From NCBI RefSeq assembly GCF_007362955.1, contig NZ_CP041696.1, positions 1,674,001 through 1,738,000 on the forward strand: a stretch of 64,000 nucleotides of DNA. Reading direction: 5' to 3'. This stretch comes from Lysinibacillus fusiformis. GTDB lineage: Bacteria; Bacillota; Bacilli; Bacillales_A; Planococcaceae. The notes under the pieces are model-generated. The model worked only from the letters and a program-made list of their open reading frames with translations. It was not told the origin of the DNA and searched no databases. Below, piece by piece: positions 11,733-25,442 of the stretch; position 1 is the stretch's first letter; every line of letters starts with the position of its first letter. A program made the translations under genes and the position numbers.

Positions 11733-12692
11733 TTATTTTTGTTGATTGATAAGCCAATTAGTTAATTCTTCAACCTGAGCTAATACAGCTGTCGGATCAT
11801 AGTACCAAGAACGCTCTTCTGGCCAAACATACAGACGATCGTTCTTTACAGCAGGCAAGGTCCCCCATAGTGGATCCGCCTTGAAATCTTCAACCGTACG
11901 ACTGTCTGAGGTCATAATAATATAGTCGCCCGCATAGCTTGCCAACATTTCTTCTGAAATTTCAGCCCATTGTTTCTCCATAATTTCATCTGCTATATTT
12001 GCAGGGGGCTTGCGTCCAAGTGCTTGATAAATGGGCTGTCCACCACGACCGAAATTATCACCATACACATAAGTCTCCTTGTCCGTATATTCCATAATAG
12101 AGAAGCTTAACCCTTCCTCAAGAACTGCATCAACTTTTACTTTAGCATCTGCAATCTTTTGATCGTAATGATCTAACCATGCTTCAGCCTCTTTTTCTTT
12201 TCCGAGTAATTGACCGAAATAAGTCAGCTCTTCATGAGCATTTTTTAGTTCACCGTATGGAACAACAACTGTAGGAGCTATTTTACTTAATGCCTCATAG
12301 TTATCTCCATTCCCAGTAATGATTAAATCTGGGCTAAGCGCAAGAATACTTTCAGTAGATGGTGCGCCGTAATCACCTATATCAGTAATTCCAGTTAGCG
12401 CGTCTTTAAAATAATAGTTTTTCAGCGTTAATCCAGGCGCACCTACTGGAACGATGTCTAATGCGATTAGACTACCTATGTATTCTTCCGCTACTATGCG
12501 TTTTGGTTGTACAGGAATTGTAATTTCTCCATTTACTGTGGTCATCGTTTTCGTCATGCTAGTTTGTTCTGTTTCTTCATTTGCCGCAGAGTTCGTCGTA
12601 CTTTTTGTTTCTCCACAGGCAGTTAAGATTAACAGTAAGATCAGAAATAATGGAATGATAAACTTCCTATGTTGATATTGTGCTAAGCGCAA
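11733..12692 (-). CDS. Ferric-siderophore-binding lipoprotein (type A)
   Basis: A lipoprotein of about 319 residues that captures an iron-siderophore outside the membrane for an ABC importer. The start is taken as TTG at 12692, seven bases after GGAGGG. The signal ends in LLLILTAC, with the lipid-carrying Cys. The mature part is a complete Peripla_BP_2 (FhuD/FepB-like) fold: PKRIVAEEYIGSLIALDIVPVGAP, then SPDLIITGNGDN, then YGDNFGRGGQPIYQALG. The GRGGQ version is shared with the proteins at 24322 and 16927 (called type A here). A Fur box precedes it. Its upstream neighbour is a Btr-like regulator carrying a related domain. No cognate permease or ATPase is in the window, so it must use one encoded elsewhere. 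Confidence 0.9.
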   Translation of the reverse strand: MRLAQYQHRKFIIPLFLILLLILTACGETKSTTNSAANEETEQTSMTKTMTTVNGEITIPVQPKRIVAEEYIGSLIALDIVPVGAPGLTLKNYYFKDALTGITDIGDYGAPSTESILALSPDLIITGNGDNYEALSKIAPTVVVPYGELKNAHEELTYFGQLLGKEKEAEAWLDHYDQKIADAKVKVDAVLEEGLSFSIMEYTDKETYVYGDNFGRGGQPIYQALGRKPPANIADEIMEKQWAEISEEMLASYAGDYIIMTSDSRTVEDFKADPLWGTLPAVKNDRLYVWPEERSWYYDPTAVLAQVEELTNWLINQQK

Positions 12693-12717
12693 TTTTAAAC
12701 CCTCCAAATATAATAAT

Positions 12718-12732
12718 TGATAATCTTTCTCA
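12718..12732 (-). promoter_or_regulatory. Fur box before the binding protein at 11733
   Basis: The 15-mer TGATAATCTTTCTCA (plus-strand text) matches the Bacillus Fur core TGATAATnATTATCA at 12 of 14 positions. It lies 25 bp before the TTG start. The same 15-mer occurs before the binding protein at 24322. Confidence 0.75.
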
Positions 12733-12797
12733 TTTGCAATTGTAAGATGGAGAGTTCATATTGTCTATGCACTAGAATGATCTATAGTCCTTCATTT

Positions 12798-14387
12798 TTA
12801 TGATGTTAACACCTTCATTATTTCATGTAGCTGTGACTTTGTGGACAACGGGTCATATCCATAAAACAAGTTTGATTGGTTAATCACATATACTTGCTTC
12901 CGTTGCACTGCCTCCATCTTTAGCCAAGATTCTGATTGAAATAATTGCTTTACCCGCCTTCTCCCCTCCCTATGTGTAGGAAGTGCCGTAATAAATATAT
13001 GATCAGCTGGGTAATTTGCGATAGCCTCAATATCTTTCTCAATATAGCCGTATTTTTCTATATTATGATTAAGCATAGAGGTGGGTAAATGAAATCCCAT
13101 TTCGTCATACAAAATTTGGCTTCCTCTGCCATAGCTGCTATTAATACAATATGCGGTATTTTCACCGATTTCCCATACAATGGCTGTCCCTCTTATGCCT
13201 AGAAAGTGATCAAGTTGCTCGTTACAATGCAAAATCAATTTATCATAATGACTAAACCATTCCTCCGCTTGTTGCTGTCTATCTACTATATCTGCAATAA
13301 GGCGAAACTGCTCACGCCAACTACTATGCATAAATGGAACTTCAAGTATTGGAGCCAATGAAAGCAATGACTTATTTCCCTTCGCTGTATTATAGTTAAT
13401 GATTAAATCAGGCCGCACTGCTGCGATGTTTTTATAGATGGACGTTGGATCATGTTCATAATTACTTAGCTTGTATACGGGGCTTACTTGCTTAACAGCA
13501 TCTAGCCATTCAGAATACACCCCCAACTCAGGTGTAACACCAAGTGCAAGTAGACACGCAGTATGATTCGTATTAAGCGAAACCACTCGCTTTTGCTTAT
13601 TATAAAAAGCAGAAGGAGACATCCCCACCAACTGCTTAAATTTGCGGCTTAAATAGGTACCTTCTTTGTAGCCAACTTCCTGCGCGAGATTATCTAATTT
13701 AGGCATATTATAGAGCAACCTTTGCTGAGATTCACGAATTCGTAGTAAGGAGAGATATGCACTAAAAGTTTGGCCTGTCTGTTTGCGAAAAGCACGTGAG
13801 AAGTGCTCTGGACTGACTTGTGCTAGTTGGGCCATCTGTTCCCGCGTTAAATCCTTATGAAAATGTGTATCCATATAATTGAGTGTTTGTTCTAGCCAGG
13901 ATTCACTAGGCCGAATTCTATCTTCCAATTCTTTGTAAAGTGCTTCAAGAAGTTCTAAAAATAATTTTTGAACATGAAATGGGTTACTTTTCATAGATTC
14001 GTTGGATATTATTTCTAACTCTGAAGCCATACGAATTATCTCGTAAGAGCAGTCCGAAAGCGGTTCGGAATGCTTCAGTATGCTTGGTTCTGATTGGTCG
14101 TTCGTTAAACCACGGTATTGGATTAGCATTCCTCGAAGTCTAGCATGTAACTTGGTTGTGATGTCTAATTCTTTTGCATTTTGCCAAAGTACCACGCATC
14201 CACGTGATAGCTTGTATTGCTCTCCCTTTAAAGTTAGAAATCCATGTCCATCATAAATAACTAAAATAGATGGTAACGAAGAGATTTCCTCAGATTTATT
14301 AAGGACCTTTTCTAACCTAGTAATTTGTATCGGATAATAAAATGTTTGCGATAAAAGTGCTCCATCTTGTGAAATCAGATTAGCCAT
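12798..14387 (-). CDS. Btr-like AraC regulator with cytoplasmic siderophore-binding domain
   Basis: A 529-residue soluble regulator. Residues 1-160 are a cupin-like arm, ~163-265 a complete AraC DNA-binding domain (HFHKDLTREQMAQLAQVSPEHFSRAFRKQ; EVGYKEGTYLSRKFKQ), and ~268-529 a Peripla_BP_2 domain with no signal peptide (LNTNHTACLLALGVTPELG; NSSYGRGSQILYDEMGF). This is the layout of Bacillus subtilis Btr, which activates bacillibactin uptake genes after binding the iron-siderophore inside the cell. Its start overlaps the stop of the AraC gene at 14380 by 8 bp, so the two are co-transcribed and translationally coupled. Its likely target is the adjacent receptor gene at 11733 (inference from position and shared fold). 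Confidence 0.88.
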   Translation of the reverse strand: MANLISQDGALLSQTFYYPIQITRLEKVLNKSEEISSLPSILVIYDGHGFLTLKGEQYKLSRGCVVLWQNAKELDITTKLHARLRGMLIQYRGLTNDQSEPSILKHSEPLSDCSYEIIRMASELEIISNESMKSNPFHVQKLFLELLEALYKELEDRIRPSESWLEQTLNYMDTHFHKDLTREQMAQLAQVSPEHFSRAFRKQTGQTFSAYLSLLRIRESQQRLLYNMPKLDNLAQEVGYKEGTYLSRKFKQLVGMSPSAFYNKQKRVVSLNTNHTACLLALGVTPELGVYSEWLDAVKQVSPVYKLSNYEHDPTSIYKNIAAVRPDLIINYNTAKGNKSLLSLAPILEVPFMHSSWREQFRLIADIVDRQQQAEEWFSHYDKLILHCNEQLDHFLGIRGTAIVWEIGENTAYCINSSYGRGSQILYDEMGFHLPTSMLNHNIEKYGYIEKDIEAIANYPADHIFITALPTHREGRRRVKQLFQSESWLKMEAVQRKQVYVINQSNLFYGYDPLSTKSQLHEIMKVLTS

Positions 14388-15396
14388 CTATGTCCCCTAC
14401 AAGCCTTTGACCTCTAACTAATTGGCTAGGATTGATTCCATATTTATCTTTGAAAGTTTGTGCAAAATAACTAGGGTTAGCGTAACCTACTTGACTACAT
14501 ACTTCATTCACATTCATCTTTCCTTCCTGTAATAATAAATACGCCTTTTCCATGCGTTTTTCTCGTAAATAACCAAAAACCGTTGTGCCAAACATCTCTT
14601 TAAAGCCCTTTTTTAATTTAAAATCGTTAAGTCCTATTGAACGTGATAATTCCATTAATGTGGGTGGATCTATCATATGCTCAATAATCATTGACTGAGC
14701 TAGTTTGATTTTTGATATATCACTTTTTGAGAATTCTGATGGTCTTGGAGATTTATCAAATAGGAAAGAACGAAATGTCATAGATAGTAGTTGTAATGCA
14801 CAACATTCTAACTCTAAATTTGTCATATGTTTGCTGTCTACTGCATCCAACATTTGCTTAACAATAATAGATGCGGATGGTTCCATTTTTTCTTGAAAAA
14901 TTCGGTACGATTTCTTTCCAATAACATGGGAAAATTCATTCACAATACCTCTACCACCACCCGTTTCTTGCATAAAATGATTGAAAGTTGAAACTGGTAT
15001 GCCAATGCCTACCATTTTATAACATTCGTTTTTATGAAAAGAAAAATTTGCTACTACTTGCTCTATAAATTGAAGAGAGCATGTCCCTGAAGCCATTTCG
15101 TGCTCTAATCCTGAAATCAAAATTCCTCTAGCACCTTGCATACAAAAGCTAAGTTCAACCATTGGGTGTTTCGTAGACATTTGCATTTGATAATTTTGAT
15201 AAAAAGCATAGTCGGAGATGACCACTTCTAAATCTGAACGCGGAATCAAGCGATGTATCGTTCCCTCTTTAATATTGGATTGGAATGTCATAGACTCTGG
15301 TGGGACGCCATGTTTCTTTGATATGTCCAACGCATTGAAAAAATGGCTAAAGTTCTGATGAAAGTTAGTTGTCAATGTTTCATCACCATCCTTCAC
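14380..15396 (-). CDS. AraC-family regulator, PchR-like
   Basis: A transcription regulator of about 338 residues with a C-terminal AraC domain (IDPPTLMELSRSIGLNDFKLKKGFKEMFG; EVCSQVGYANPSYFAQTFKDKYG). Its N-terminal part (MVELSFCMQGARGILISGLEHEM) resembles the ligand-binding part of PchR/YbtA-type regulators, which switch on siderophore genes. It differs from the other regulators here in lacking a binding-protein domain. GTG at 15396 has no clear ribosome site; TTG at 15375, behind AAGGATGG, is an alternative start. A Fur box lies just upstream, and it forms an operon with the Btr-like gene at 12798. Confidence 0.85.
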   Translation of the reverse strand: MKDGDETLTTNFHQNFSHFFNALDISKKHGVPPESMTFQSNIKEGTIHRLIPRSDLEVVISDYAFYQNYQMQMSTKHPMVELSFCMQGARGILISGLEHEMASGTCSLQFIEQVVANFSFHKNECYKMVGIGIPVSTFNHFMQETGGGRGIVNEFSHVIGKKSYRIFQEKMEPSASIIVKQMLDAVDSKHMTNLELECCALQLLSMTFRSFLFDKSPRPSEFSKSDISKIKLAQSMIIEHMIDPPTLMELSRSIGLNDFKLKKGFKEMFGTTVFGYLREKRMEKAYLLLQEGKMNVNEVCSQVGYANPSYFAQTFKDKYGINPSQLVRGQRLVGDIDG

Positions 15397-15405
15397 AACT
15401 TTTAT

Positions 15406-15420
15406 TGAGAATGATTTTCA
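15406..15420 (-). promoter_or_regulatory. Fur box before the PchR-like regulator
   Basis: TGAGAATGATTTTCA matches TGATAATnATTATCA at 12 of 14 positions and is a symmetric variant. It lies 10 bp upstream of the annotated GTG. Confidence 0.75.
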
Positions 15421-15519
15421 TTATCTATCGAAAGTATAGCAAATTCATAATTCTTTTGCTATTAAATGAAAAATAAAAAAGGGATTGGTCAGATTACTTT
15501 ATTGTTACTAACAATACCT

Positions 15520-16707
15520 TTACTGCACTTCTTTCGATTGAAGCATCATTGCAATAAGTACACACAAGAAAAACATAACTGCACCGAAACTGTAAGCAGA
15601 CATATAACCACCAGCGTATTCAATTAGTCCACCAGCAAGCACAGGGCCAATCATTTGGCCAACTGCATAAAAAATAGATATAAAGCCAATGGCAGTTGCA
15701 ACATACTTTGGTTGCACTTGTTGACTGGCTTTCATTTGGATTAGCACGAGAACACCGCCAAGTGAAGAACCCCAAATAACTGCTGATACAATAAATCCTG
15801 CTATAGTTCCGTATACAATTGGAAGAATATCTCCAACCGCAGACAATACTAAAGCTGCAAGTAACGCTTTTTTCACACTTATTCGATCAGCGAGCATTCC
15901 CCATAACGGAGCTCCTCCAATTGAAACAATACCCGCTATCGCATAAACAGTTCCTGCCATTGCGTTAGAAAGCCCAAGCTCTTTCATATAGCTCGTTTGA
16001 TATAAGTTCGGTATTAAATAGACAATACCAACAATAAAATAGAGCACTGCAATGAAATACAGTTCTTTACTTCTCCACCCATTTGTTTTTTCGTCACCAT
16101 TTACATTTTCATGCGATGCATGTGGCGTTTTTAAAACAAACGCTGCAAGTAGCACTACAATGATTGTTATGCTTGCAAATATTAGCCAAGGGCCTCGCCA
16201 TCCAAGCTGTGGGAAATGCTGTAACATAAATGGCACAAGTATTCCAGATAATAGCATCCCAATACCTGCCCCACTCATTAACAGTCCCATCACTGTTCCT
16301 CTTTTCTTTGGGAACGAGCCAATTGCTATTGATAGAAGAGGTGTATAAACAAGTGCACTACCAGCACCTGCTAAAAACAAACTTATAGCTGCCCACCAAA
16401 AGTTCGTGATAAATACAAGACCTGCCAATCCTGCAACAACAAGTCCACTACCTAACAGCAGCACTTTTTTCGCCCCTAAACGCAGCGTCAAAATGCCTGC
16501 CATCCCTACAGTTAACAAATAACCTAAAAATAACATTGTTCCTAATAATCCAGACTCTGTCGTAGTGAGTGACAGACCCTCCTGCATGAAAGGTAACATA
16601 ATGCCATAGGCCATTCTGGCGAAACCCGTGGTTGTAATGATTAAAAACATACCTGTCAAAATGAACATCCAAAAGTGTTGCCTGTCTTTCTTTAACTGAC
16701 TATTCAT
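15520..16707 (-). CDS. MFS transporter (YbfB/YjiJ-like)
   Basis: A 395-residue membrane protein with about twelve hydrophobic segments, in two halves separated by a hydrophilic loop at residues ~190-215 (KTPHASHENVNGDEKTNGWRSKEL). It has the MFS loop 2-3 signature in altered form (LTLRLGAKKVLLLGSG). FARMAYGIMLPFMQEGLSLTTTESGLLGT near the start is typical of the YbfB/YjiJ group. ATG with AGGAGGAATTTAGAA upstream. It sits inside the iron island behind a weak Fur-like site, so a role in siderophore export or uptake is plausible but not shown. The substrate is unknown. Confidence 0.8.
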   Translation of the reverse strand: MNSQLKKDRQHFWMFILTGMFLIITTTGFARMAYGIMLPFMQEGLSLTTTESGLLGTMLFLGYLLTVGMAGILTLRLGAKKVLLLGSGLVVAGLAGLVFITNFWWAAISLFLAGAGSALVYTPLLSIAIGSFPKKRGTVMGLLMSGAGIGMLLSGILVPFMLQHFPQLGWRGPWLIFASITIIVVLLAAFVLKTPHASHENVNGDEKTNGWRSKELYFIAVLYFIVGIVYLIPNLYQTSYMKELGLSNAMAGTVYAIAGIVSIGGAPLWGMLADRISVKKALLAALVLSAVGDILPIVYGTIAGFIVSAVIWGSSLGGVLVLIQMKASQQVQPKYVATAIGFISIFYAVGQMIGPVLAGGLIEYAGGYMSAYSFGAVMFFLCVLIAMMLQSKEVQ

Positions 16708-16738
16708 TTCTAAATTCCTCCTATACTCTTTCTACAAA

Positions 16739-16753
16739 TAACAATGATTAACA
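16739..16753 (-). promoter_or_regulatory. Weak Fur-like site before the MFS gene
   Basis: TAACAATGATTAACA matches the Fur core at 11 of 14 positions, 32 bp upstream of the ATG. A nearby AACAAT/ATTGTT dyad (16751-16778) adds symmetry. It is weaker than the other boxes in the island. Confidence 0.4.
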
Positions 16754-16926
16754 ATATAAACATTGTTATCGTACCCCCTTGCTTATTTGTTCTCTACCAA
16801 TTGGCGGATAAAATAGTGGTTTCCTGGATTTTTATGATTTAGCAATTTCCATAGCAACAAAAAAGCTCCCATACCTTATGTAGGCACGAGAGATTTTTAA
16901 AGGCTAATCCTTTTTAAGTAAACATA

Positions 16927-17901
16927 TTATTTTTCCCTTTCCAGTAAACTATTCACAATAAATTCAAGCTGTTTATCTAAGGAAATAGGATCACTGAAGA
17001 AAGAATCATATTCATCTATGATGAATACACGGTTATTTTTTATAGCCGGTAGATCCTTCCACAAAACCCCAGATGTTGATTTTTCAAAATCGGCGTTATC
17101 TTCAACAAATATATAATCTCCTGCAAACTCTGGAAGTCGTTCTAAAGAAAAGGAAACCCATCCACCCTTTAAATCGATTGCTTCTCTTTGAATTAGCTCA
17201 GGCGCCTTTAAACCAAACTCCCCGTACATGATTTCTCCGCCTCTTCCAAATTTATCACCATATGCATATATCTCTTTTTCACCCACACCGAGAATTGCTA
17301 TAGTTTTATTGCCTACCTTCTCTTGAATAAGTGTTTGGTACTCTGCAATTTTTCTATTCCAATTAGCAATCCATTCTTCTGCAACTTCTTCTTTCCCAAA
17401 CATTTTTCCAAATTCAAGGAATTGCTCTTTAAAATCCTTTTCTTTAGGCTTAATAGCAATGGTTGGGGCTATTTTTTGTAGGTTTTCAATATTTTCAGAA
17501 GACGTTTTTGTAATGATTAAATCTGGCTTTAATTCGAGAATTTTTTCGAGTGATTCATCATCCCCAATATTTTCGATACCATCCACTAATCCATCAAAGT
17601 ATCGATTTCTTAAACCAAATTGAGACAATCCAACTGGTTTTATGCCAAGTGCTAGTAAGTAACCAGCATAACTTTCTGCAGTGACAACAATCCTCTGTGG
17701 ATTTTCTGGGATTTCAACTTCGCCATTACCAGTAGTAATAATTTTAGTTCTTGTTTGGACTTCTTCGGACTGAGAAGTTGTTGTTTTTGCGCTTCCGTTT
17801 GTTGAACTATTTTCTATTGCCCGCTCAGAACATGCACTCAATAACAAAGAGAAGCATAAAAATAAAGTTGCAAGCATGTGCATTTTTGTAGGTTTAACCA
17901 T
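16927..17901 (-). CDS. Siderophore-binding lipoprotein from an internal start
   Basis: The C-terminal 324 residues of the fused frame can be made on their own. ATG at 17899-17901 follows AAAAAAGGAGAATTATTA, a strong ribosome site. It gives a normal type II signal peptide with lipobox LLSAC and then a full Peripla_BP_2 domain ending DPISLDKQLEFIVNSLLEREK. Its own Fur box and -10/-35 lie just upstream. This is probably the main source of the surface receptor under iron starvation (inference); the same DNA also encodes the end of the longer frame. Confidence 0.7.
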   Translation of the reverse strand: MVKPTKMHMLATLFLCFSLLLSACSERAIENSSTNGSAKTTTSQSEEVQTRTKIITTGNGEVEIPENPQRIVVTAESYAGYLLALGIKPVGLSQFGLRNRYFDGLVDGIENIGDDESLEKILELKPDLIITKTSSENIENLQKIAPTIAIKPKEKDFKEQFLEFGKMFGKEEVAEEWIANWNRKIAEYQTLIQEKVGNKTIAILGVGEKEIYAYGDKFGRGGEIMYGEFGLKAPELIQREAIDLKGGWVSFSLERLPEFAGDYIFVEDNADFEKSTSGVLWKDLPAIKNNRVFIIDEYDSFFSDPISLDKQLEFIVNSLLEREK

Positions 17902-18861
17902 TAATAATTCTCCTTTTTTAGTATATTGATAATGATTATCACCAATATATCGTTGAGAGGCTTGTCCAACAATGGAGAATTCTATGAAGTTATCTGGAGA
18001 ATCTTCTGCTTTTCGCTGAATTAATGCTACTTTTCTATATTTCGCAGGTGAAACATCCTTATATTTTTTAAAAAGGCGGCTAAAGTAATACGAGTCTTTA
18101 TACCCAACACTTTCGGCAATCTCACTGACTGTCGCATCGGTTTCAATTAACATCATTTCAGCCTTTTCAATTCTGGTAAAAATTAAATATTCAATTGGGC
18201 TAAATCCCGTCTTTTTTTTAAATAAGGAAGATAAATGAGGTACACTGTAGTTCAAATTTTCTGCAAGGGATTCTAACATGATGTTTTCAGCATAATGCTC
18301 CTGTATATAGACAATGACTTGGTCGGCAAGCTCTGGCAGCTTCACCTCAACTCCCTGTACGTGGAGCTGTTCCAAAATATTATAAGCAAATTGATAGAAT
18401 TGCGCTTTCACATGGAATCGATCAATCAACTGTGGTTGATGCCATGTTTGATTCATCAATTTCACCTGATAAAAAAGGGTGCTTGGATAATTCGGCAAAA
18501 AACTATATTGCATATGGAATGGATTACTTTTCTCCATCTTCTCTATGATGTTCTTTGCACATGGTAGTGGCATTGTTGCTCGATAAAATATCATATAAAA
18601 CTCAAATTCTGCTTCTGTTAAGGATATGCTCAGGTGAATTCCTTTGCCGCTATGTATCACTTGAAATTTTCGGAAAATATATTCAATATTATTCAGTTGC
18701 ACCACAGCACTGCCGCGTGTTGCAAAAAGAAATACACTAGCAGGCAACTTATAAGCATTCAAAGATTCATACTTTTTCAACCTATTATGACGTACATCCA
18801 ATACTTTAATAGAAGCATGATTCCATAGAAAAATATGATGATTAATGTCCAATGCATTCAC
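16927..18861 (-). CDS. AraC regulator and siderophore-binding lipoprotein in one reading frame
   Basis: One uninterrupted frame of 644 codons. Residues ~175-280 are a full AraC DNA-binding domain (HYAENIMLESLAENLNYSVPHLSSLFKKK; SVGYKDSYYFSRLFKKYKDVSPAKYRK). Residues 281-320 are a linker that coincides with a promoter and Fur box in the DNA. Residues 321-344 are a lipoprotein signal (MHMLATLFLCFSLLLSAC), and the rest is a complete type A siderophore-binding fold (YGDKFGRGGEIMYGEFGL). A fusion product would place the DNA-binding part inside and the receptor outside, joined by one membrane span. Equally, these may be two genes whose stop codon has been lost: a start codon, ribosome site and Fur promoter for the lipoprotein are all present. 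The GTG start has only a weak ribosome site. The frame at 22187 has the same design. Confidence 0.75.
   Translation of the reverse strand: MNALDINHHIFLWNHASIKVLDVRHNRLKKYESLNAYKLPASVFLFATRGSAVVQLNNIEYIFRKFQVIHSGKGIHLSISLTEAEFEFYMIFYRATMPLPCAKNIIEKMEKSNPFHMQYSFLPNYPSTLFYQVKLMNQTWHQPQLIDRFHVKAQFYQFAYNILEQLHVQGVEVKLPELADQVIVYIQEHYAENIMLESLAENLNYSVPHLSSLFKKKTGFSPIEYLIFTRIEKAEMMLIETDATVSEIAESVGYKDSYYFSRLFKKYKDVSPAKYRKVALIQRKAEDSPDNFIEFSIVGQASQRYIGDNHYQYTKKGELLMVKPTKMHMLATLFLCFSLLLSACSERAIENSSTNGSAKTTTSQSEEVQTRTKIITTGNGEVEIPENPQRIVVTAESYAGYLLALGIKPVGLSQFGLRNRYFDGLVDGIENIGDDESLEKILELKPDLIITKTSSENIENLQKIAPTIAIKPKEKDFKEQFLEFGKMFGKEEVAEEWIANWNRKIAEYQTLIQEKVGNKTIAILGVGEKEIYAYGDKFGRGGEIMYGEFGLKAPELIQREAIDLKGGWVSFSLERLPEFAGDYIFVEDNADFEKSTSGVLWKDLPAIKNNRVFIIDEYDSFFSDPISLDKQLEFIVNSLLEREK
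17927..17972 (-). promoter_or_regulatory. Internal promoter and perfect Fur box within the fused frame
   Basis: On the minus strand TTGTTG (17967-17972), a 17-bp spacer and TATATT (17944-17949) are followed by TGATAATCATTATCA (17927-17941), a perfect match to the Fur core. The ribosome site and ATG of the lipoprotein come next. In the long frame the operator is translated as DNHYQY. Confidence 0.8.
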
Positions 18862-18903
18862 TCATTTCTTTTGTTTGCAATTACTAACATAACTATTATA
18901 AAT

Positions 18904-18923
18904 GATAATGATAATTATTATCA
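18904..18923 (-). promoter_or_regulatory. Fur operator before the fused gene at 16927
   Basis: GATAATGATAATTATTATCA contains a perfect core (18909-18923) overlapped by a second partial one shifted by six bases. Overlapping cores of this kind are typical of strong Fur sites. It lies about 45 bp upstream of the GTG start. Confidence 0.85.
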
Positions 18924-19011
18924 ATCATCTATCTAACCTTTCCATTACTATACGTCTACCTCTTTTAGAGCATTTTGTATAAAAATCAATTAGACTACTT
19001 TAGTTTCTCCA

Positions 19012-19040
19012 TTGTGCAAAATAACCGGCTACATTATGCT
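19012..19040 (+). promoter_or_regulatory. Likely sigma-A promoter of the binding protein at 19098
   Basis: TTGTGC, a 17-bp spacer and TATGCT lie directly upstream of the perfect Fur operator. The spacing is ideal although both hexamers deviate from consensus. Confidence 0.55.
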
Positions 19041-19050
19041 TTCTTATATC

Positions 19051-19069
19051 GATAATGATAATCATTATC
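19051..19069 (+). promoter_or_regulatory. Perfect 19-bp Fur operator
   Basis: GATAATGATAATCATTATC is the full 19-bp Fur consensus palindrome without a mismatch. It begins 10 bases after the predicted -10 box and 47 bp before the ATG. Confidence 0.93.
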
Positions 19070-19097
19070 TATTTCACTTTTATATGGAGGAACTAAC

Positions 19098-20060
19098 ATG
19101 AAAAAGCTAAATCGATATATGCTCATCTGTAGCGTACTATTAATCTTTGGGGTATTACTATCGGCTTGTAGCTCAAAGAACGAAGCAACAGATAAGAAAG
19201 AAGAAAATCCAGTGGAGGAAGCAAAGGTACGTGTTTATAAGGATACTGTAGGCCATGAGGTTGAAATTCCTGTTTCACCGGAAAGAGTGATTTATCATGG
19301 TGAAGGATATGGTGATCTACTTGCTTTAGATGTAAAAACAGTTGGTGCCGGCTTCGCATGGATTACGAATTATGCATGGGAAGATCGTGTACAAAATGTA
19401 GAGGATGTAGGCTTCCCTATTAATGTAGAAAAAACACTAGCTTTAAAGCCTGACCTTATTATCATTGCAACTACCGATGAAAAAATATATACACAACTTT
19501 CCAAAATCGCACCAACTATAGTACTTGATACATTCGCTCCTTTAGAAAAACGTTTATCAGAGCTTGGCGATATACTAGGAAAGAAACAAGAGGCCACTGC
19601 ATGGTTAAACAACTATAATGAAAAAGCTGAAAAAATGTGGAAATCACTGGTTGATGACGGCACTATCCAACCCAATGAAACAGCTTCTGTTTTGACTTAT
19701 TATCCTGGGGACCGTTTGTTTGTCATGGCACGTGCTGGTCTCTCACAAGTTCTTTATGAATCAGAAGGTGGCTTCAAACCAGGTGCAAATATCCAACAAA
19801 TTCTTGATGAAGAGAAAGGCTTTGTTGAAATTTCCACAGAACTTCTCCCGGAGTATGCTGGAGATCGAATTTTCATACTTACTCCGGTAGATGATGAAGC
19901 GAAACAATCGACTAGTGATATGATGGAAAGTAATATATGGATAAATTTACCTGCTGTCAAAAATGGACATGTCTACACGATTGATATTCAAAAAGGTGAC
20001 AGTGATGCTTCGACAAGAGAATGGTTACTAGACGAAATTCCTACTATGTTAAAAAAATAA
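19098..20060 (+). CDS. Ferric-siderophore-binding lipoprotein (type B)
   Basis: A 320-residue lipoprotein; the signal ends in GVLLSAC and the ATG follows ATGGAGGAACTAAC. The mature part is a Peripla_BP_2 domain: PVSPERVIYHGEGYGDLLALDVKTVGAG, then KPDLIIIATTDEKIY, then LPEYAGDRIFIL. It lacks the YGDxxGRGG stretch of the type A proteins and instead has LFVMARAGLSQVLYESEGGF. The sensor domain of the regulator immediately downstream (20166) matches it along its whole length (VIYHGETFGDIL; FVMGCTGLSTALYHPNGF; LPQYAGDRIFML). That suggests both bind the same ligand. It is expressed from a Fur-controlled promoter and followed by a strong terminator. Confidence 0.92.
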   Translation: MKKLNRYMLICSVLLIFGVLLSACSSKNEATDKKEENPVEEAKVRVYKDTVGHEVEIPVSPERVIYHGEGYGDLLALDVKTVGAGFAWITNYAWEDRVQNVEDVGFPINVEKTLALKPDLIIIATTDEKIYTQLSKIAPTIVLDTFAPLEKRLSELGDILGKKQEATAWLNNYNEKAEKMWKSLVDDGTIQPNETASVLTYYPGDRLFVMARAGLSQVLYESEGGFKPGANIQQILDEEKGFVEISTELLPEYAGDRIFILTPVDDEAKQSTSDMMESNIWINLPAVKNGHVYTIDIQKGDSDASTREWLLDEIPTMLKK

Positions 20061-20070
20061 ATTATTTGTT

Positions 20071-20108
20071 AAGAGGCAATTCAACTATAGTTGAATTGCC
20101 TCTTTATA
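20071..20108 (+). terminator. Terminator after the binding protein at 19098
   Basis: AAGAGGCAATTCAACT and its exact complement (20071-20104) make a 16-bp perfect hairpin with almost no loop, followed by TATATTTTAT. Confidence 0.85.
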
Positions 20109-20128
20109 TTTTATACAATACTAATAAT

Positions 20129-20143
20129 TGATAATCATTTTCA
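20129..20143 (+). promoter_or_regulatory. Fur box before the Btr-like regulator at 20166
   Basis: TGATAATCATTTTCA matches the Fur core at 13 of 14 positions, 22 bp before the ATG. The regulator therefore has its own iron control separate from the receptor gene upstream. Confidence 0.85.
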
Positions 20144-20165
20144 TTTACATAAAGGAGTGAAAAAG

Positions 20166-21815
20166 ATGGAGAATAAAAAGCCGATTTCCTTTCAAACTGC
20201 CCTGCTTTTTCATCTATCCGACATTGACTATATTACTCGCTCTACACAATCGAGTTACCAGCAAATCTTCGCTAAGCAGCATACATTGATTATTTTTATT
20301 ACTGGTAGTGGAACACTTACTATTGATGATGCTCAATTTATTGTCGCAACTGGCAAAATTTTTCTCCTTCCGCCTGATTCCGTCATGGATTTATCAGATA
20401 TAGATAAGCATAATTATAGTTTTTATAAGATATCATTTACAACCATACAACTACAACAACAAGTACCTTCTACATACAAAGAGAGTTTATTTTCTGATCA
20501 GGTAGCGTATGCAATCTATCCTTACGCTCGCATAATTCGACTCGCGGAAGAGCTTTATAAAACACAGCGCCAGTCAAATCCAATTAAACAACAAAGTCTT
20601 TTATACGAATTACTTAGCGATTTGTTTGAGTATCACCTGCAAACAAATCATAAATATGATGTTTCACAAGCTGTTGAGCAAACAATCGAATATATCCACA
20701 AGCACTATCAAAAGTCACTAACTGTTAAACAATTAGCAAGTTTAGCTCAAGTTGCCCAATGGCAGTACAGTACAATCTTCCAAACATTAACAGGCAAAAA
20801 ACCTCTTGATTATGTAACTGAATTACGATTAGAACACGCACAAGTACTGCTTCAACAAACAAATGAACCGTTAAAGGACATTGCACAGTTAGTGGGATTT
20901 AATGATGAATATTATTTTAATCGACGTTTTAAGCAAATGATCGGTATGCCTCCAAAGCAGTTTGCACGTAAGCAAAAGCAAAAAGTTGTTGTAAAGGACT
21001 GGACGGGTCATGAAGTTGTAATCCCTTCTGCCCCTAGCCGTGTCATTTATCATGGAGAGACATTTGGGGATATACTCATTTTTGATATACAACCGATTGG
21101 TGGAGATAAAACTGCTATTAATAAAACGCTCTATAAAAATCGTGTGCCACTTGTTCAAGATGTAAACTTTCCAATTGATTTTGAAAAATCTTCTGTGCTA
21201 AAACCAGATTTAATTATCTTTACGAATGCTGACGAACAGCAGTATCAAGTTTTATCAGCAATTGCCCCTACAGTCACACATAATTCTTGGGGAACACTTG
21301 AAGAGCGTATCGCACTCTTAGGACAATGGCTTGGCAAGGAATCGGAGGCAGAGGATTGGCTAATGCGTTTTAAGCAAAAAGAAGATAGGATGTGGCAGCA
21401 GTTGCAAACCACTCTTGAACCAGGTGAAACAGCCTCTGTTTTTATTTTCGACCGGGGTAAACGCCTTTTTGTGATGGGATGCACAGGCTTATCAACAGCT
21501 CTTTATCATCCAAACGGATTTCAACCAAATAAATTAATAGAGCAATTAATTCAGTCAAAAGCAGGGTACAAAGAAATATCTATAGAGTTACTACCTCAAT
21601 ACGCAGGAGATCGGATTTTTATGTTATTCTCAGATAATCTTGAATCAAGGCTCGCTACAGAGGAACTCATAAACAGCTTCATATGGGAAAGCCTACCCGC
21701 AGTTAAGAAAGGTAATTTTTATTTTGTAGACGCGAGGAAATGGAATTATAGCGATGCTTACACAAGGGAAAAGTTACTTAGAGCTTTACCGCGATTGATT
21801 GGACAGACAATTTAA
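20166..21815 (+). CDS. Btr-like AraC regulator with cytoplasmic siderophore-binding domain
   Basis: A 549-residue soluble regulator; the ATG at 20166 follows AAAGGAGTGAAAAAG. Residues 1-165 are a cupin-like sensor arm, ~170-270 the AraC DNA-binding domain (HYQKSLTVKQLASLAQVAQWQYSTIFQ; LVGFNDEYYFNRRFKQMIG), and ~275-549 a binding-protein fold without signal peptide or membrane span. It follows the type B receptor gene at 19098, and its sensor domain is the closest match to that receptor in the window. The inferred job is to report intracellular iron-siderophore and activate the receptor gene. It is likely Fur-repressed through the box at 20129. Confidence 0.9.
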   Translation: MENKKPISFQTALLFHLSDIDYITRSTQSSYQQIFAKQHTLIIFITGSGTLTIDDAQFIVATGKIFLLPPDSVMDLSDIDKHNYSFYKISFTTIQLQQQVPSTYKESLFSDQVAYAIYPYARIIRLAEELYKTQRQSNPIKQQSLLYELLSDLFEYHLQTNHKYDVSQAVEQTIEYIHKHYQKSLTVKQLASLAQVAQWQYSTIFQTLTGKKPLDYVTELRLEHAQVLLQQTNEPLKDIAQLVGFNDEYYFNRRFKQMIGMPPKQFARKQKQKVVVKDWTGHEVVIPSAPSRVIYHGETFGDILIFDIQPIGGDKTAINKTLYKNRVPLVQDVNFPIDFEKSSVLKPDLIIFTNADEQQYQVLSAIAPTVTHNSWGTLEERIALLGQWLGKESEAEDWLMRFKQKEDRMWQQLQTTLEPGETASVFIFDRGKRLFVMGCTGLSTALYHPNGFQPNKLIEQLIQSKAGYKEISIELLPQYAGDRIFMLFSDNLESRLATEELINSFIWESLPAVKKGNFYFVDARKWNYSDAYTREKLLRALPRLIGQTI

Positions 21816-21870
21816 AGTTTACTCAATAAATTCCGGCAATTTTAGATTTTTGGCTGTGAGGTGGATTCTC

Positions 21871-22107
21871 ATGTTGAATAAGGGGAAAACTCCTAGCACG
21901 ATAATCGGGAATGATGTTCGAAATTATATGGCAAACCATTTTGATGAGCAGCTATCTATTGATTATCTAGCGTTGATAACAGGCTTAAACCCAAACTATT
22001 TTGGCGAAGTGTTTAAGAAAGCTTATGTGCAATTTGCTGTGGAAGAACATGTTAGTGTCCTTCCCTGCATGCTTAGCAGACTTCCTCGATTTTTAAATTC
22101 TAAATGA
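21871..22107 (+). pseudogene. Truncated AraC DNA-binding fragment
   Basis: A 78-residue frame whose middle (VRNYMANHFDEQLSIDYLALITGLNPNYFGEVFKKAY) is the first helix-turn-helix of an AraC protein. The second helix pair is missing: after the first motif the sequence becomes unrelated (VEEHVSVLPCMLSRLPRFLNSK). A GTGAGGTGG ribosome-site-like stretch precedes the ATG. It is most likely the remains of another AraC gene of this island; expression as a small DNA-binding protein cannot be excluded. Confidence 0.55.
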
Positions 22108-22113
22108 CAGTGC

Positions 22114-22150
22114 AAAACCCAAGTGGCGTTAACGCCACTTGGGTTTTTTT
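22114..22150 (+). terminator. Bidirectional terminator between convergent genes
   Basis: A perfect 14-bp inverted repeat (AACCCAAGTGGCGT at 22116-22129 and its complement) with a tiny loop is followed by a T run on the plus strand and flanked by AAAA on the other side. It can serve the AraC fragment and the gene at 22187. Confidence 0.9.
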
Positions 22151-22186
22151 AAGCATCAAAATATTTAAATCATTAGAAGGATAACG

Positions 22187-23179
22187 CTATTTCACTAACA
22201 TATTCGGAAATTCCTCCAACAACATTTCACTCGTTGTCATATCATCATAATTCCATTTATCCTCAATATAATATATTTTATTGTTTTTTACGGCAGGCAA
22301 AGAGTTCCACAAAGGCTTTTGTTGTAATTCTTCAAAAGCTTTTTGAGCCTCTTTATCCGCAGAAAGTAATACAAATAAATAATCACCAACAAGCGTATCG
22401 TGCATGGATTCTTCAGAAATTTGAATGTATGGTCCACTATTTGGCTGTAACGCTTGTACCTTTTCATCCATAGCAAAACCTGTAGGCTGATACAGCAGAT
22501 CAGCTACCCCTCCTGTTTTCATCACATACATATTTTTATTCCAAAAATATTGAAGTACCACCGCTGTTTCACCTTCTGCTACCGTGCCATTTGCACGAAG
22601 CTTTTGCCACATAGCTTCTACATCTTCTTCATACTTTTTCAGTTGTTGCTCTCCTTCTGCTTTTTTACCAACAATATCAGCAATAATAGGGAATCGTTCC
22701 TTTAATGGAAGCATACCATCGAAAACAACAGTTGGTGCGATTTTAGAGGCTTCTTCAACTTCCTTATCCATAACGTATGACAACATAATCAAATCTGGAT
22801 TTAACGAAAGCACCTTCTCCAAATTTGTTGGGAAGCCAATATCGGTTGCACTAATTTTCCCTTTATTCTCTAATACACCGCTATCAATAAAACGGTGATC
22901 CACCCCTACAGGCTCTATACCTAATGCAAGTAAATCACCAATGGCATTCCCCTGAAGCACAATTTGTTCTGGCTTTGTTGGAATGTCTATTTCGGTTCCT
23001 TGACTATCTTTATAAACTCTTGTCTCAGAAGAGCTAGCCGCCTGATTTTCTAAAACAGTTTGATTTTGTCCTGTCGTTTCATTATTCAAATTTGCAGCGC
23101 CCCCTGTACAAGCACTTAGTAATAATGTAATGCAAAGCAATGCTGTTGCCGCAAGTGATGCTTTCGACCCTCTATGCAT
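22187..23179 (-). CDS. Siderophore-binding lipoprotein from an internal start (second copy)
   Basis: ATG at 23177-23179 follows GTGGAGAGGAAGATTTACAT, an adequate ribosome site, and gives a 330-residue lipoprotein: a short signal (GSKASLAATALLCITLLLSAC), then a full Peripla_BP_2 domain ending MTTSEMLLEEFPNMLVK. The end resembles that of 19098 (REWLLDEIPTMLKK), so it belongs to the same type B group. The Fur box lies at the same distance from the start codon as in the first copy (26 bases). Confidence 0.7.
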   Translation of the reverse strand: MHRGSKASLAATALLCITLLLSACTGGAANLNNETTGQNQTVLENQAASSSETRVYKDSQGTEIDIPTKPEQIVLQGNAIGDLLALGIEPVGVDHRFIDSGVLENKGKISATDIGFPTNLEKVLSLNPDLIMLSYVMDKEVEEASKIAPTVVFDGMLPLKERFPIIADIVGKKAEGEQQLKKYEEDVEAMWQKLRANGTVAEGETAVVLQYFWNKNMYVMKTGGVADLLYQPTGFAMDEKVQALQPNSGPYIQISEESMHDTLVGDYLFVLLSADKEAQKAFEELQQKPLWNSLPAVKNNKIYYIEDKWNYDDMTTSEMLLEEFPNMLVK

Positions 23180-24133
23180 ATGTAAATCTTCCTCTCCACT
23201 ATATTGATAATGATTATCACTATCAATATATCGCCAAATTTGGCGCCAAACAATGGACAATCCAATGGCATTTTGAGGACTATCTACTTCTTGCAGAAGG
23301 TTGACTTCCCGTTTTCTAAAGCGTAAAGGTGAAACCCCTTTATACTTTTTAAAAAGACGACTAAAATAATACGGGTCTTTATAACCAATACTTAAGGCAA
23401 TTTCCTTTAATGTTGCATCTGTCTCTACCAATAGCTTTGCTGCTATATCAAGTCGAGTTCTGATTAAATAATCAATTACACTGTATCCTGTTTTCTTTTT
23501 GAACAATGAAGATACATGAGGAACACTGTAATTCAAATTTGCTGAAATAGACTCCAATGTAATCGATTGCGCATAATGTTCTTGTATATACATGACTACT
23601 TGCGCTACAAGGTCAGGCTCTATGACGTCAACTTCTTGCCTCTGAAGCTGTTTTAATACACTGTAAATAAATTGATAAAACAATGACTTAACATAGAATC
23701 GATCCAAGGCTTCTGCCCGATTCCATTCCTGCTCCATTAACTTAACCCTATGAAATAGAGAAATTGGATAACTTGGTACAAAACTATATTGTAAATGAAA
23801 TGGATTATTCGTTTCCAACAGACGCAATATCTCTTGACGACTAGAGCTTGGAATCGATGCTTTATAGAAAATTAAATAATATTCCAGTTCATTCTCTGTA
23901 AGAATTATATCTAAAATAGTCCCTTTCCCACTATGTATGACTTGAAACTGTTGAATGATATATTCAATATGATCAAGCTGAACTTGTGCTTGACCACGCG
24001 AGATAAAAATAAAACCATTAGAGGGCATTTTGTAATTGCGTAAATCCTCTCCCCACCTCAAAATCTTACGGCGTACATCTAACACTTTTATTGAGGCATT
24101 ATCCCAAAGTAAAGTATGGTCTTTTCCGTTCAT
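22187..24133 (-). CDS. AraC regulator and siderophore-binding lipoprotein in one reading frame (second copy)
   Basis: A 648-codon frame from ATG at 24133 (AAAGGAGGGGGACTATTAAA upstream). An AraC domain lies at ~178-275 (HYAQSITLESISANLNYSVPHVSSLFKKK; SIGYKDPYYFSRLFKKYKGVSPLRFRK). A linker at ~276-318 is translated across a promoter and Fur box. Then come a lipoprotein signal (LAATALLCITLLLSAC) and a type B binding domain (KPEQIVLQGNAIGDLLALGIEPVGV; YMQ-like VMKTGGVADLLYQPTGF; LVGDYLFVLLSADKEAQ). The AraC half is closely related to that of 16927, but the receptor halves are of different types. Keeping the frame open in both despite divergence suggests it is either selected or inherited from one fused ancestor whose receptor half was swapped. 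Confidence 0.77.
   Translation of the reverse strand: MNGKDHTLLWDNASIKVLDVRRKILRWGEDLRNYKMPSNGFIFISRGQAQVQLDHIEYIIQQFQVIHSGKGTILDIILTENELEYYLIFYKASIPSSSRQEILRLLETNNPFHLQYSFVPSYPISLFHRVKLMEQEWNRAEALDRFYVKSLFYQFIYSVLKQLQRQEVDVIEPDLVAQVVMYIQEHYAQSITLESISANLNYSVPHVSSLFKKKTGYSVIDYLIRTRLDIAAKLLVETDATLKEIALSIGYKDPYYFSRLFKKYKGVSPLRFRKREVNLLQEVDSPQNAIGLSIVWRQIWRYIDSDNHYQYSGEEDLHMHRGSKASLAATALLCITLLLSACTGGAANLNNETTGQNQTVLENQAASSSETRVYKDSQGTEIDIPTKPEQIVLQGNAIGDLLALGIEPVGVDHRFIDSGVLENKGKISATDIGFPTNLEKVLSLNPDLIMLSYVMDKEVEEASKIAPTVVFDGMLPLKERFPIIADIVGKKAEGEQQLKKYEEDVEAMWQKLRANGTVAEGETAVVLQYFWNKNMYVMKTGGVADLLYQPTGFAMDEKVQALQPNSGPYIQISEESMHDTLVGDYLFVLLSADKEAQKAFEELQQKPLWNSLPAVKNNKIYYIEDKWNYDDMTTSEMLLEEFPNMLVK
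23205..23253 (-). promoter_or_regulatory. Internal promoter and perfect Fur box within the second fused frame
   Basis: On the minus strand TTGTTT (23248-23253), a 17-bp spacer and TATATT (23225-23230) are followed by TGATAATCATTATCA (23205-23219), a perfect Fur core. The arrangement and distances are the same as at 17927-17972, and the operator is again read as DNHYQY in the long frame. The spacer contains the palindrome TTTGGCGCCAAA. Confidence 0.8.
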
Positions 24134-24169
24134 TTTAATAGTCCCCCTCCTTTCTATCATCATTATAAT

Positions 24170-24184
24170 TGATAATTATTATCA
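24170..24184 (-). promoter_or_regulatory. Perfect Fur box before the fused gene at 22187
   Basis: TGATAATTATTATCA is a perfect Fur core 37 bp before the ATG at 24133. The fused frame therefore has two Fur boxes, one before the AraC part and one in the middle. Confidence 0.88.
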
Positions 24185-24321
24185 ATTATACTTAAAGTAT
24201 GTAGAGGTAAAATTACTTTATACTAATAGAAAATCCACTTGATTTCGAAGGATACTTTGGAAATCAAGTGGATTCTTAATGTATATTCTAGATAATGTGT
24301 TTACAAAAACGTTATGAGGCC

Positions 24322-25308
24322 TTACTTTTCCTTATCTAAATAATCCTTGAGCATACTAGCTATTTCTTCGACCTGTGCCTCTACTGCGATTGGATCATAG
24401 GGCCAGAATCGTTCTGGATTCAATTGAAAGACGCGTTTATTTTTTACGGCATCCAATGTTGACCATACCGATGAATCCTCATCAAATTCTGCGCCACCAG
24501 ATATATCCAAAAAGATATAGTCGCCTGCATAATCAGCAATTTTCTCCTGTGAGATATTCAAAGCATTTATTTTGGAATCAATTAAATCCTTACGAACTGT
24601 CTCAGGTGGTGTTAAACCTAGCTGCTGATAAATCGCCTGCCCGCCTCTATTTACACCATCACCGTAAATATAAAAATCCTTACCAAAAGGACCCATAAGC
24701 GAAAAGGTTGTCCCTTCCTTAATTAACCCTTGTATCGAAGCTTTTGCGCTTTCTACCTTTGAATCGAATCCTTTTAGCCACTTTTCAGCTTCCCTTTCCT
24801 TACCTAGTATCTCTCCAAATGCTCTCATTTCTTCATGAACTTCATGATAGGTTCCATAGGGTATGACTAATGTCGGGGCAATTTTTCGATATTGTTCATT
24901 TAATTTTTCATCTCCACCAACAGTTACTATTAAGTCCGGTTTTAGAGACAAGATTTTTTCCACAGAGCCTCCATCAATTTGTCCAATGTCTGTGATACCA
25001 TCGCTCATTTCTATCGTATAAGGACTTTCTAACTCCCAATATGGAGCCCCTACTGGCTTAACTCCAAAAACTAAGAAGTTTGCTAAATAGCCCTGCGTTA
25101 CAATCCTTTGTGGATTTGCAGGTATTTCAACATCTCCATCAATTGTTTTGATGATTTTCGTTTCTAAATTCGTAGTCGTATTACTATCCGATTTAGATGA
25201 ATAGCTGTTTAAATCGCTCTCTCCTGTACTCCCGCATCCACTTAAAGTGAATACTAGCAGGACTGTTAAAATAATACCTGCACAAATGTCGCGTTTAGCC
25301 TTGCACAT
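24322..25308 (-). CDS. Ferric-siderophore-binding lipoprotein (type A)
   Basis: A lipoprotein of about 328 residues; ATG at 25308 follows TTGAGGAGAGATAAG. The signal ends in VFTLSGC. The mature Peripla_BP_2 domain has NPQRIVTQGYLANFLVFGVKPVGAP, then KPDLIVTVGGDEKLNEQ, then YGDGVNRGGQAIYQQLGLTPP, then YAGDYIFLDISGGAEF. It is a close relative of 11733, including the same Fur-box variant and the same order: receptor downstream of a Btr-like regulator (25443). The two receptor/regulator pairs look like products of one duplication. Its job is to deliver a ferric siderophore to an importer that is not encoded here. Confidence 0.9.
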   Translation of the reverse strand: MCKAKRDICAGIILTVLLVFTLSGCGSTGESDLNSYSSKSDSNTTTNLETKIIKTIDGDVEIPANPQRIVTQGYLANFLVFGVKPVGAPYWELESPYTIEMSDGITDIGQIDGGSVEKILSLKPDLIVTVGGDEKLNEQYRKIAPTLVIPYGTYHEVHEEMRAFGEILGKEREAEKWLKGFDSKVESAKASIQGLIKEGTTFSLMGPFGKDFYIYGDGVNRGGQAIYQQLGLTPPETVRKDLIDSKINALNISQEKIADYAGDYIFLDISGGAEFDEDSSVWSTLDAVKNKRVFQLNPERFWPYDPIAVEAQVEEIASMLKDYLDKEK

Positions 25309-25330
25309 CTTATCTCTCCTCAATCGATAA

Positions 25331-25345
25331 TGATAATCTTTCTCA
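25331..25345 (-). promoter_or_regulatory. Fur box before the binding protein at 24322
   Basis: TGATAATCTTTCTCA matches the Fur core at 12 of 14 positions and is identical to the box at 12718. It overlaps GATAATGATAATC, giving a longer site from 25326. Confidence 0.78.
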
Positions 25346-25442
25346 ACTATTGCTTTTATCGTATCGATTTATTGGACACCCGTCTATTTCAAAATGTGAC
25401 AATCTCTACATGGACAATCGTTACATCGGTAAATTCATCAAA

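Follow-up and report, generated by a model that had tools for sequence, protein, structure and literature searches.

A reading frame joining an AraC-type regulator to a lipoprotein receptor in Lysinibacillus fusiformis and its relatives, with a candidate Fur-controlled start at the joint

The stretch of Lysinibacillus fusiformis DNA analysed here (64,000 nucleotides, hereafter the window) contains a gene that probably gives two products from one reading frame: a long siderophore sensor that links an AraC-type regulator with a siderophore-binding protein (SBP), and a Fur-controlled lipoprotein receptor that would be translated from an internal start. Related bacteria keep this layout, which suggests that it is used. 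As judged by sequence comparison, the frame, the linker, the start signals, the lipobox and both protein halves are conserved. The comparison shows the unbroken AraC-SBP chain to be under selection and the predicted internal lipoprotein start to be preserved. From these observations we infer that both products are made and that the AraC half activates uptake genes. Two products had been proposed in an earlier note on this DNA; the proposal is well supported at the level of comparison, with the joint, the internal Fur box, the Shine-Dalgarno sequence (SD), the start and the lipobox all conserved.

Parts of the long frame and its nested start signals

The long open reading frame (16927..18861, minus strand, as are all features given below for this frame and for the second fusion) starts with GTG and encodes 644 aa in the order AraC regulator, linker, lipoprotein signal and FhuD-like binding protein. 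According to Pfam and an AlphaFold model, the AraC half (aa 1-286; 18004..18861) consists of a beta-rich N-domain and the two-HTH DNA-binding domain that characterises the AraC/XylS family, with Pfam matches over the 644-aa frame to HTH_18 at aa 199-277 (1.2e-20) and to HTH_AraC (4.2e-21, best stretch aa 241-277). It is followed by a linker (aa 287-326; 17884..18003), predicted to be disordered, in which most of the nested promoter and start signals lie, and by a lipoprotein signal (aa 321-344; 17830..17901) with the lipobox LLSAC and Cys344. The FhuD-like binding domain (aa 379-640; 16942..17727) matches Peripla_BP_2 at aa 391-617 (2.1e-25) and contains E439 and E574, which, from FhuD2 and BtuF work, we take to be the conserved permease-docking glutamates. 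The gene therefore carries the three features by which a siderophore-binding lipoprotein was defined here, namely the Peripla_BP_2 domain, the lipobox signal and the two presumed docking glutamates. The 644-codon frame from AraC to lipoprotein claimed in the earlier note is thus present, with Pfam domains in agreement.

The AlphaFold model of the 644-aa protein (24-sequence alignment, mean pLDDT 80.8, pTM 0.45) gave, in order, the beta-rich N-domain, HTH helices up to residue 286, a disordered linker (pLDDT <50 at aa 287-327), a single 18-residue helix (327-344) and, after a disordered stalk at 345-369, the binding domain, folded from about residue 371; at a pTM of 0.45, the relative placement of the domains is not given by the model. 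The solved structures nearest to the SBP half are the hydroxamate-siderophore receptors FhuD/FhuD2 (3hxp, 3g9q and FhuD2), which differ from it in standing alone.

Direct reading of the joint revealed a -35-like TTGTTG (17967..17972) separated by a 17-nt spacer from a -10-like TATATT (17944..17949, codons Y-I), a Fur box with the core TGATAATCATTATCA (17927..17941), the SD AAAAAAGGAG (17910..17919) and an ATG (17899..17901), from which a short lipoprotein binding protein corresponding to aa 321-644 (16927..17901) would be made. The internal Fur box, SD, ATG and LLSAC lipobox were all found where the earlier note had placed them, and the operator is indeed translated as DNHYQY in the frame. Another Fur box precedes the start of the long frame (18909..18923), and both boxes score 14/14, as expected of Fur-regulated promoters if these are recognised by a predicted Fur box. 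Across the window, 13 Fur sites score at least 12/14 and six at least 13/14, vs means of 1.2 and 0.05, respectively, in 20 first-order Markov simulations.

The window holds a second fusion of 658 aa (22187..24163) with the same open joint. Its internal Fur box (23205..23219) and its upstream Fur box (24170..24184) both score 14/14, and its internal ATG lies at 23177..23179. The two window fusions are 59% identical in the AraC half, 50% in the joint and 28% in the SBP half. Four full-length AraC-SBP fusions are present in the host genome; the copy at 3.60 Mb is preceded by genes for two FecCD permeases, an ATPase and an SBP, and the copy at 2.57 Mb is followed by an ABC exporter-type gene, an ATPase gene and two FecCD genes. 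FhuF-like genes lie downstream of fusions at loci L170 and L171.

Positions 11733-27023 of the window resemble a siderophore-receptor island that includes the two signal-bearing fusions, Btr-type AraC-SBP genes at 12798, 20091 and 25443, SBP lipoprotein genes at 11733, 19098 and 24322, an AraC gene and an MFS transporter gene. A 102-aa open reading frame at 21799-22107, flanked by a Btr-type gene and the second fusion, resembles a leftover piece of an AraC HTH domain. No FecCD domain was found among the 18 window open reading frames scanned with Pfam. Siderophore synthesis in the window was considered and discarded, the 1460-aa open reading frame encoding an S-layer-homology protein and not a synthetase.

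Conservation of the joint among relatives

Relatives of the gene were found in Lysinibacillus (L. parviboronicapiens, 94%), Paenibacillus, Brevibacillus, Cohnella, Aneurinibacillus and Metasolibacillus, and within Clostridia in Hungatella and Scatolibacter, so that the open frame occurs in both Bacilli and Clostridia, down to 28% identity. Among 116 distinct signal-type fusions, a joint Fur box of at least 11/14 was present in 112, every one in the same codon frame, and the joint box outscored all other sites of its open reading frame in 105. In 104/116, an SD of at least 4 nt accompanies a start codon located 15-26 codons ahead of the Cys (24.6% of control windows); with an SD of at least 5 nt, the figures were 60/116 and 7%. 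The best internal start candidate was ATG in 112 cases, GTG in two and TTG in two. The lipobox Cys was kept in 113/116 fusions and an h-region of at least 1.6 on the Kyte-Doolittle scale in 115/116, the signal showing positive residues ahead of the hydrophobic stretch; Fur box, SD and Cys occurred all three together in 100/116. In 98/116 fusions, the 300 nt ahead of the AraC start contain a Fur box scoring 12/14 or better, vs 0/116 control stretches. The promoter TTGTTG-17-TATATT described in the earlier note holds only in part as a conserved element: a -10-like hexamer matching at least 5/6 was found in 61/112 relatives (8% in the control), whereas the -35-like hexamer showed no enrichment over the control across relatives and was rejected as a conserved promoter part.

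Measured from Pro272 to the lipobox Cys, the linkers of the 116 fusions span 62-80 codons in 13 different lengths, that is, they change by whole codons, and their identity is low (median 25%). Stop codons numbered 0, 537 and 885 in frames 0, +1 and +2, respectively; only 3/116 linkers were free of stops in frame +1 and none in frame +2. As these fusions had been picked for openness, their lack of in-frame stops proves nothing alone, and the denominators come from the searches with the AraC half described below. Over 43 sister pairs, dN/dS was lowest in the SBP half (0.090), similar in the signal (0.159) and the AraC half (0.162), higher in the stalk (0.277) and highest in the linker (0.447, range 0.38-0.52). 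The linker ratio is well above those of both halves, and it favours a selected linker over the neutral evolution that the earlier note had named as a point against its reading. Synonymous change is also low in the linker (pS 0.17 vs 0.37), and in the promoter stretch (pS 0.155), so part of the constraint falls on the DNA; the linker appears to be conserved at the level of both DNA and protein. Between the window gene and its two nearest relatives, the linker ratios were 1.9 (8 changes) and 0.8, values that rest on few changes.

When the AraC half alone was used as query, all 64 matches of at least 108 bits, from 61 genomes, lay in frames of at least 602 aa; the 108-bit line was drawn after the list had been viewed, and below it the matches from a deep fused clade are interspersed with stand-alone AraC genes. 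Of these matches, 63 proved on reading to be full-length fusions whose joint is of the signal type, and one (L292) an AraC-SBP fusion without signal. The corresponding search of Paenibacillaceae (148 genomes, at least 150 matches, at most 16 candidates scored per genome) placed 144 of the 150 matches listed in frames of at least 609 aa, 28 of which were inspected as loci and the remainder judged by frame length. The 29 Paenibacillaceae loci inspected included 28 AraC-SBP fusions, 27 of them with a lipobox and a Fur box in the usual codon frame; the Cys is missing from the L230 fusion, and L217 belongs to the six exceptions. Among the exceptions, L248 and L249 have an open joint and a broken SBP, L245 and L247 have decayed joints, and L246 and L250 are clean splits with intact SBP frames, the AraC stop of L246 overlapping the SBP start. 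Stops or frameshifts in the linkers of relatives, which the earlier note had regarded as damaging, thus affect only 4 of the 150 Paenibacillaceae joints listed, a result that favours the open joint. A further candidate split, L207, was rejected, as its N-terminal part is absent and its frameshift falls after the open joint.

Occurrence in the clostridial class is patchy: of 245 genomes sampled there, only two, including Scatolibacter itself, contained a close relative of the clostridial AraC half. The 2.7-Mb genome of Scatolibacter rhodanostii holds six open fusions (L277, L279, L281, L283, L285 and L290) and one broken in the AraC half. Their joints are without Fur boxes and share a linker stretch around TTTGACGAACTCAA that may be another operator. 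Tandem arrays of two or three fused genes were seen at L198 (Metasolibacillus meyeri) and in genomes G018 and G031.

Losses of start signals and exchange of binding-protein halves

Several lineages have lost one of the signals at the joint and kept the chain. All ten clostridial loci analysed lack a joint Fur box (best scores 8-10/14) and keep the open frame and the lipobox; SD and ATG were seen in the five clostridial joints inspected with their DNA. The signal or its Cys was lost in three lineages in which the joining of AraC to SBP was retained, and four signal-less fusions fall inside the signal-bearing clade of the AraC tree, at two separate places. At L170, L173 and L182, a signal-less AraC-SBP gene is followed by a separate SBP lipoprotein gene, and it looks as if the gene had been split into sensor and receptor after duplication. 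By eye, the lipoprotein leader of these loci, in the SBP frame, resembles the fused linker with one stop. At L099 and L100, from two species, Tyr or Ser stands in place of the Cys, the SD has been lost and the hydrophobic stretch contains a Lys; the AraC and SBP halves each show a dN/dS of 0.16, and the Fur box of L099 is weak (10/14). L230 and L292 are further signal-less fusions, absent from the trees.

These cases bear on two readings in which the long chain would have no meaning. The first holds that two ordinary genes ran together when the stop between them was accidentally lost, and that the long product serves no purpose; this alternative was raised in the earlier note, and we give it very little credence. 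An unfused order of AraC, SBP and permeases does exist, and two clean splits were found. The alternative nevertheless fails on the AraC-half searches (64/64 matches, and 144/150 of those listed in Paenibacillaceae) and on the stops that crowd frames +1 and +2; an open frame kept across Bacilli and Clostridia down to 28% identity through 13 linker lengths, and a fusion retained after signal loss, likewise argue against it. It would be just as improbable that the linker is open merely because the Fur box and the promoter happen to be open in that frame. The low pS of the promoter stretch fits such a view, but linker length varies by whole codons, the L099 box is weak, and the clostridial loci are open without a Fur box, which indicates that the open frame is not a by-product of the box. 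In the clostridial loci, the signal-less fusions and L099/L100 alike, the chain persists where the Fur box or the lipoprotein signal has gone, which is hard to reconcile with a meaningless chain.

The SBP half of the signal-bearing fusions retains the appearance of a transport receptor. Both E439 and E574 were kept in all 112 signal-bearing fusions aligned and in 98/98 stand-alone SBPs, vs 3/4 signal-less fusions and 5/26 Btr-type proteins; four of the 116 fusions were left out of this count, three as near-copies (L063, L074, L081) and one by the length filter (L172_5956). The retention of these glutamates indicates continued resemblance to a receptor, for which the short product offers an explanation.

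The histories of the two halves were compared in trees. The AraC tree comprised 88 AraC halves, including 60 of 113 signal fusions after 80% thinning, 12 of 13 Btr-type and 12 stand-alone AraC proteins. In this tree, the AraC halves of the fusions form essentially one clade (4 label changes); L160 and L089 lie outside it on long branches and are either independent fusions or tree artefacts. The SBP halves are intermixed with stand-alone SBPs, with 18 label changes, of which strongly supported branches force at least 11, in a tree of 102 rows (72% thinning, Btr-type rows left out) built with a quick method and SH-aLRT support only. Either exchange of SBP modules behind the AraC module or loss of AraC could give this pattern, and the frame would have been kept through either.

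Possible roles and placement of the two products

In the mechanism that we propose, low iron would free both boxes of Fur. The upstream promoter would then give the long protein, an AraC-type regulator joined to a hydroxamate-siderophore-type binding protein and acting as a one-component siderophore sensor; the promoter, SD and in-frame ATG inside the linker would give the short lipoprotein, which would feed the permease of a FecCD-type ABC importer. The long form would sense ferric siderophore through its attached SBP, and its AraC half would activate uptake genes. Replacing the binding-protein module while the AraC module stays the same would retune the sensor.

Known systems share parts of this arrangement. 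Btr (YbbB) of Bacillus subtilis is an AraC-type regulator with a binding-protein domain (NCBIfam NF049932), and the window fusions resemble it in joining an AraC HTH to Peripla_BP_2, with siderophore sensing presumed. Btr-type proteins have no signal between the halves, whereas the window fusions carry a signal and a lipobox there; they also differ in seldom keeping both docking glutamates, and the 12 used form a clade of their own in the AraC tree (99/96), with the window AraC halves outside it. Against the Btr model, whose cut-off is 900, the window proteins reach just 96.6 and 118.9 bits. The 12 stand-alone AraC proteins used form a separate clade as well (100/97). Operons of separate araC, SBP lipoprotein and permease genes show the same order of parts. 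In L013, from the host's own genome, a Fur box, SD and ATG precede the SBP gene, and in L253, known from annotation and located on plasmid pMGMM7 of Lysinibacillus fusiformis, an unfused AraC gene heads an SBP-permease-permease-ATPase run; unlike in the fusions, AraC ends about 200 bp or more ahead of the SBP start. A layout like that of pMGMM7 (DinB-AraC-SBP-permease-permease) was seen at L254 on CP031730.1, a plasmid labelled Stenotrophomonas rhizophila, which may reflect a wrong label or a mixed sample; CP065518.1 was also among the matches listed.

Bacteroides hybrid two-component systems and CadC/ToxR-type regulators place a sensor outside and a DNA-binding part inside in a single chain, a likeness that holds if the long form spans the membrane. 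The fusion differs from them in having no kinase or receiver, an N-terminal DNA-binding part, a lipobox and a receptor that would also be made alone.

AraC-SBP fusions as such are already known. The co-occurrence of their domains has been published: in a survey of siderophore clusters, 229 of 6,023 Peripla_BP_2 genes had a further domain, HTH_18 in 98.7% (PMC13293324). The words 'fused' and 'fusion' are absent from its main text, and no mention of signals or joints was met in the part covered. In the literature searched, which included few subscription papers, no account of the lipoprotein signal, of the nested Fur promoter or of two products was found.

The location of the long form can be viewed in several ways. 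Our first choice, a plausible one, is that it spans the membrane, its AraC half facing the cytoplasm and its receptor half the exterior. The hydrophobic helix and the positive residues before it agree with this placement, but the lipobox is cleavable, and with a normal lipobox the long form would be expected to be cleaved into two pieces. The elevated dN/dS of the linker and the natural splits with both halves intact (L246, L250) also count against our main reading. If cleavage does occur, the long form may instead be a polyprotein, inserted, lipidated and cut at the lipobox to yield a tethered or later released AraC together with an equal amount of lipoprotein, so that supply of the regulator would be coupled to export. 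The near-universal Cys and h-region and the predicted helix of only 18 residues speak for such processing; however, the signal-less descendants, which could not be cut there, retain the fusion, and the short product alone also accounts for the lipobox, so we consider the polyprotein improbable. Somewhat less doubtful, though still unlikely in our judgement, is a cytoplasmic long form that senses imported siderophore like Btr, the buried signal acting in the short product only. Btr-type proteins and the three signal-losing lineages do manage with an AraC-SBP fusion that is not exported, but the positive residues precede the hydrophobic stretch in the long form too, and nothing visible blocks use of the signal there.

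Returning to the membrane-spanning form, we tentatively advance, as a proposal with rather less than an even chance of being right, that these fusions make up a class of membrane-spanning one-component sensors. In such a class, AraC would be tethered through a lipoprotein signal to an external receptor, which would also be made alone from the Fur promoter in the linker; receptor modules would be swapped, and Btr-like cytoplasmic sensors would repeatedly arise by loss of the signal.

Because the long form conceals a lipoprotein, such genes may be misread by programs for gene calling and signal-peptide prediction. The attachment of a receptor to a regulator offers a way to guess which siderophore induces which uptake genes. 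If the proposed reading is true, one bacterial gene would bring together a sensor and a part of a transporter; an operator, a ribosome site and a start codon would have been kept as protein-coding sequence over large distances; and the fusions would show one way for cytoplasmic AraC-SBP sensors to evolve.
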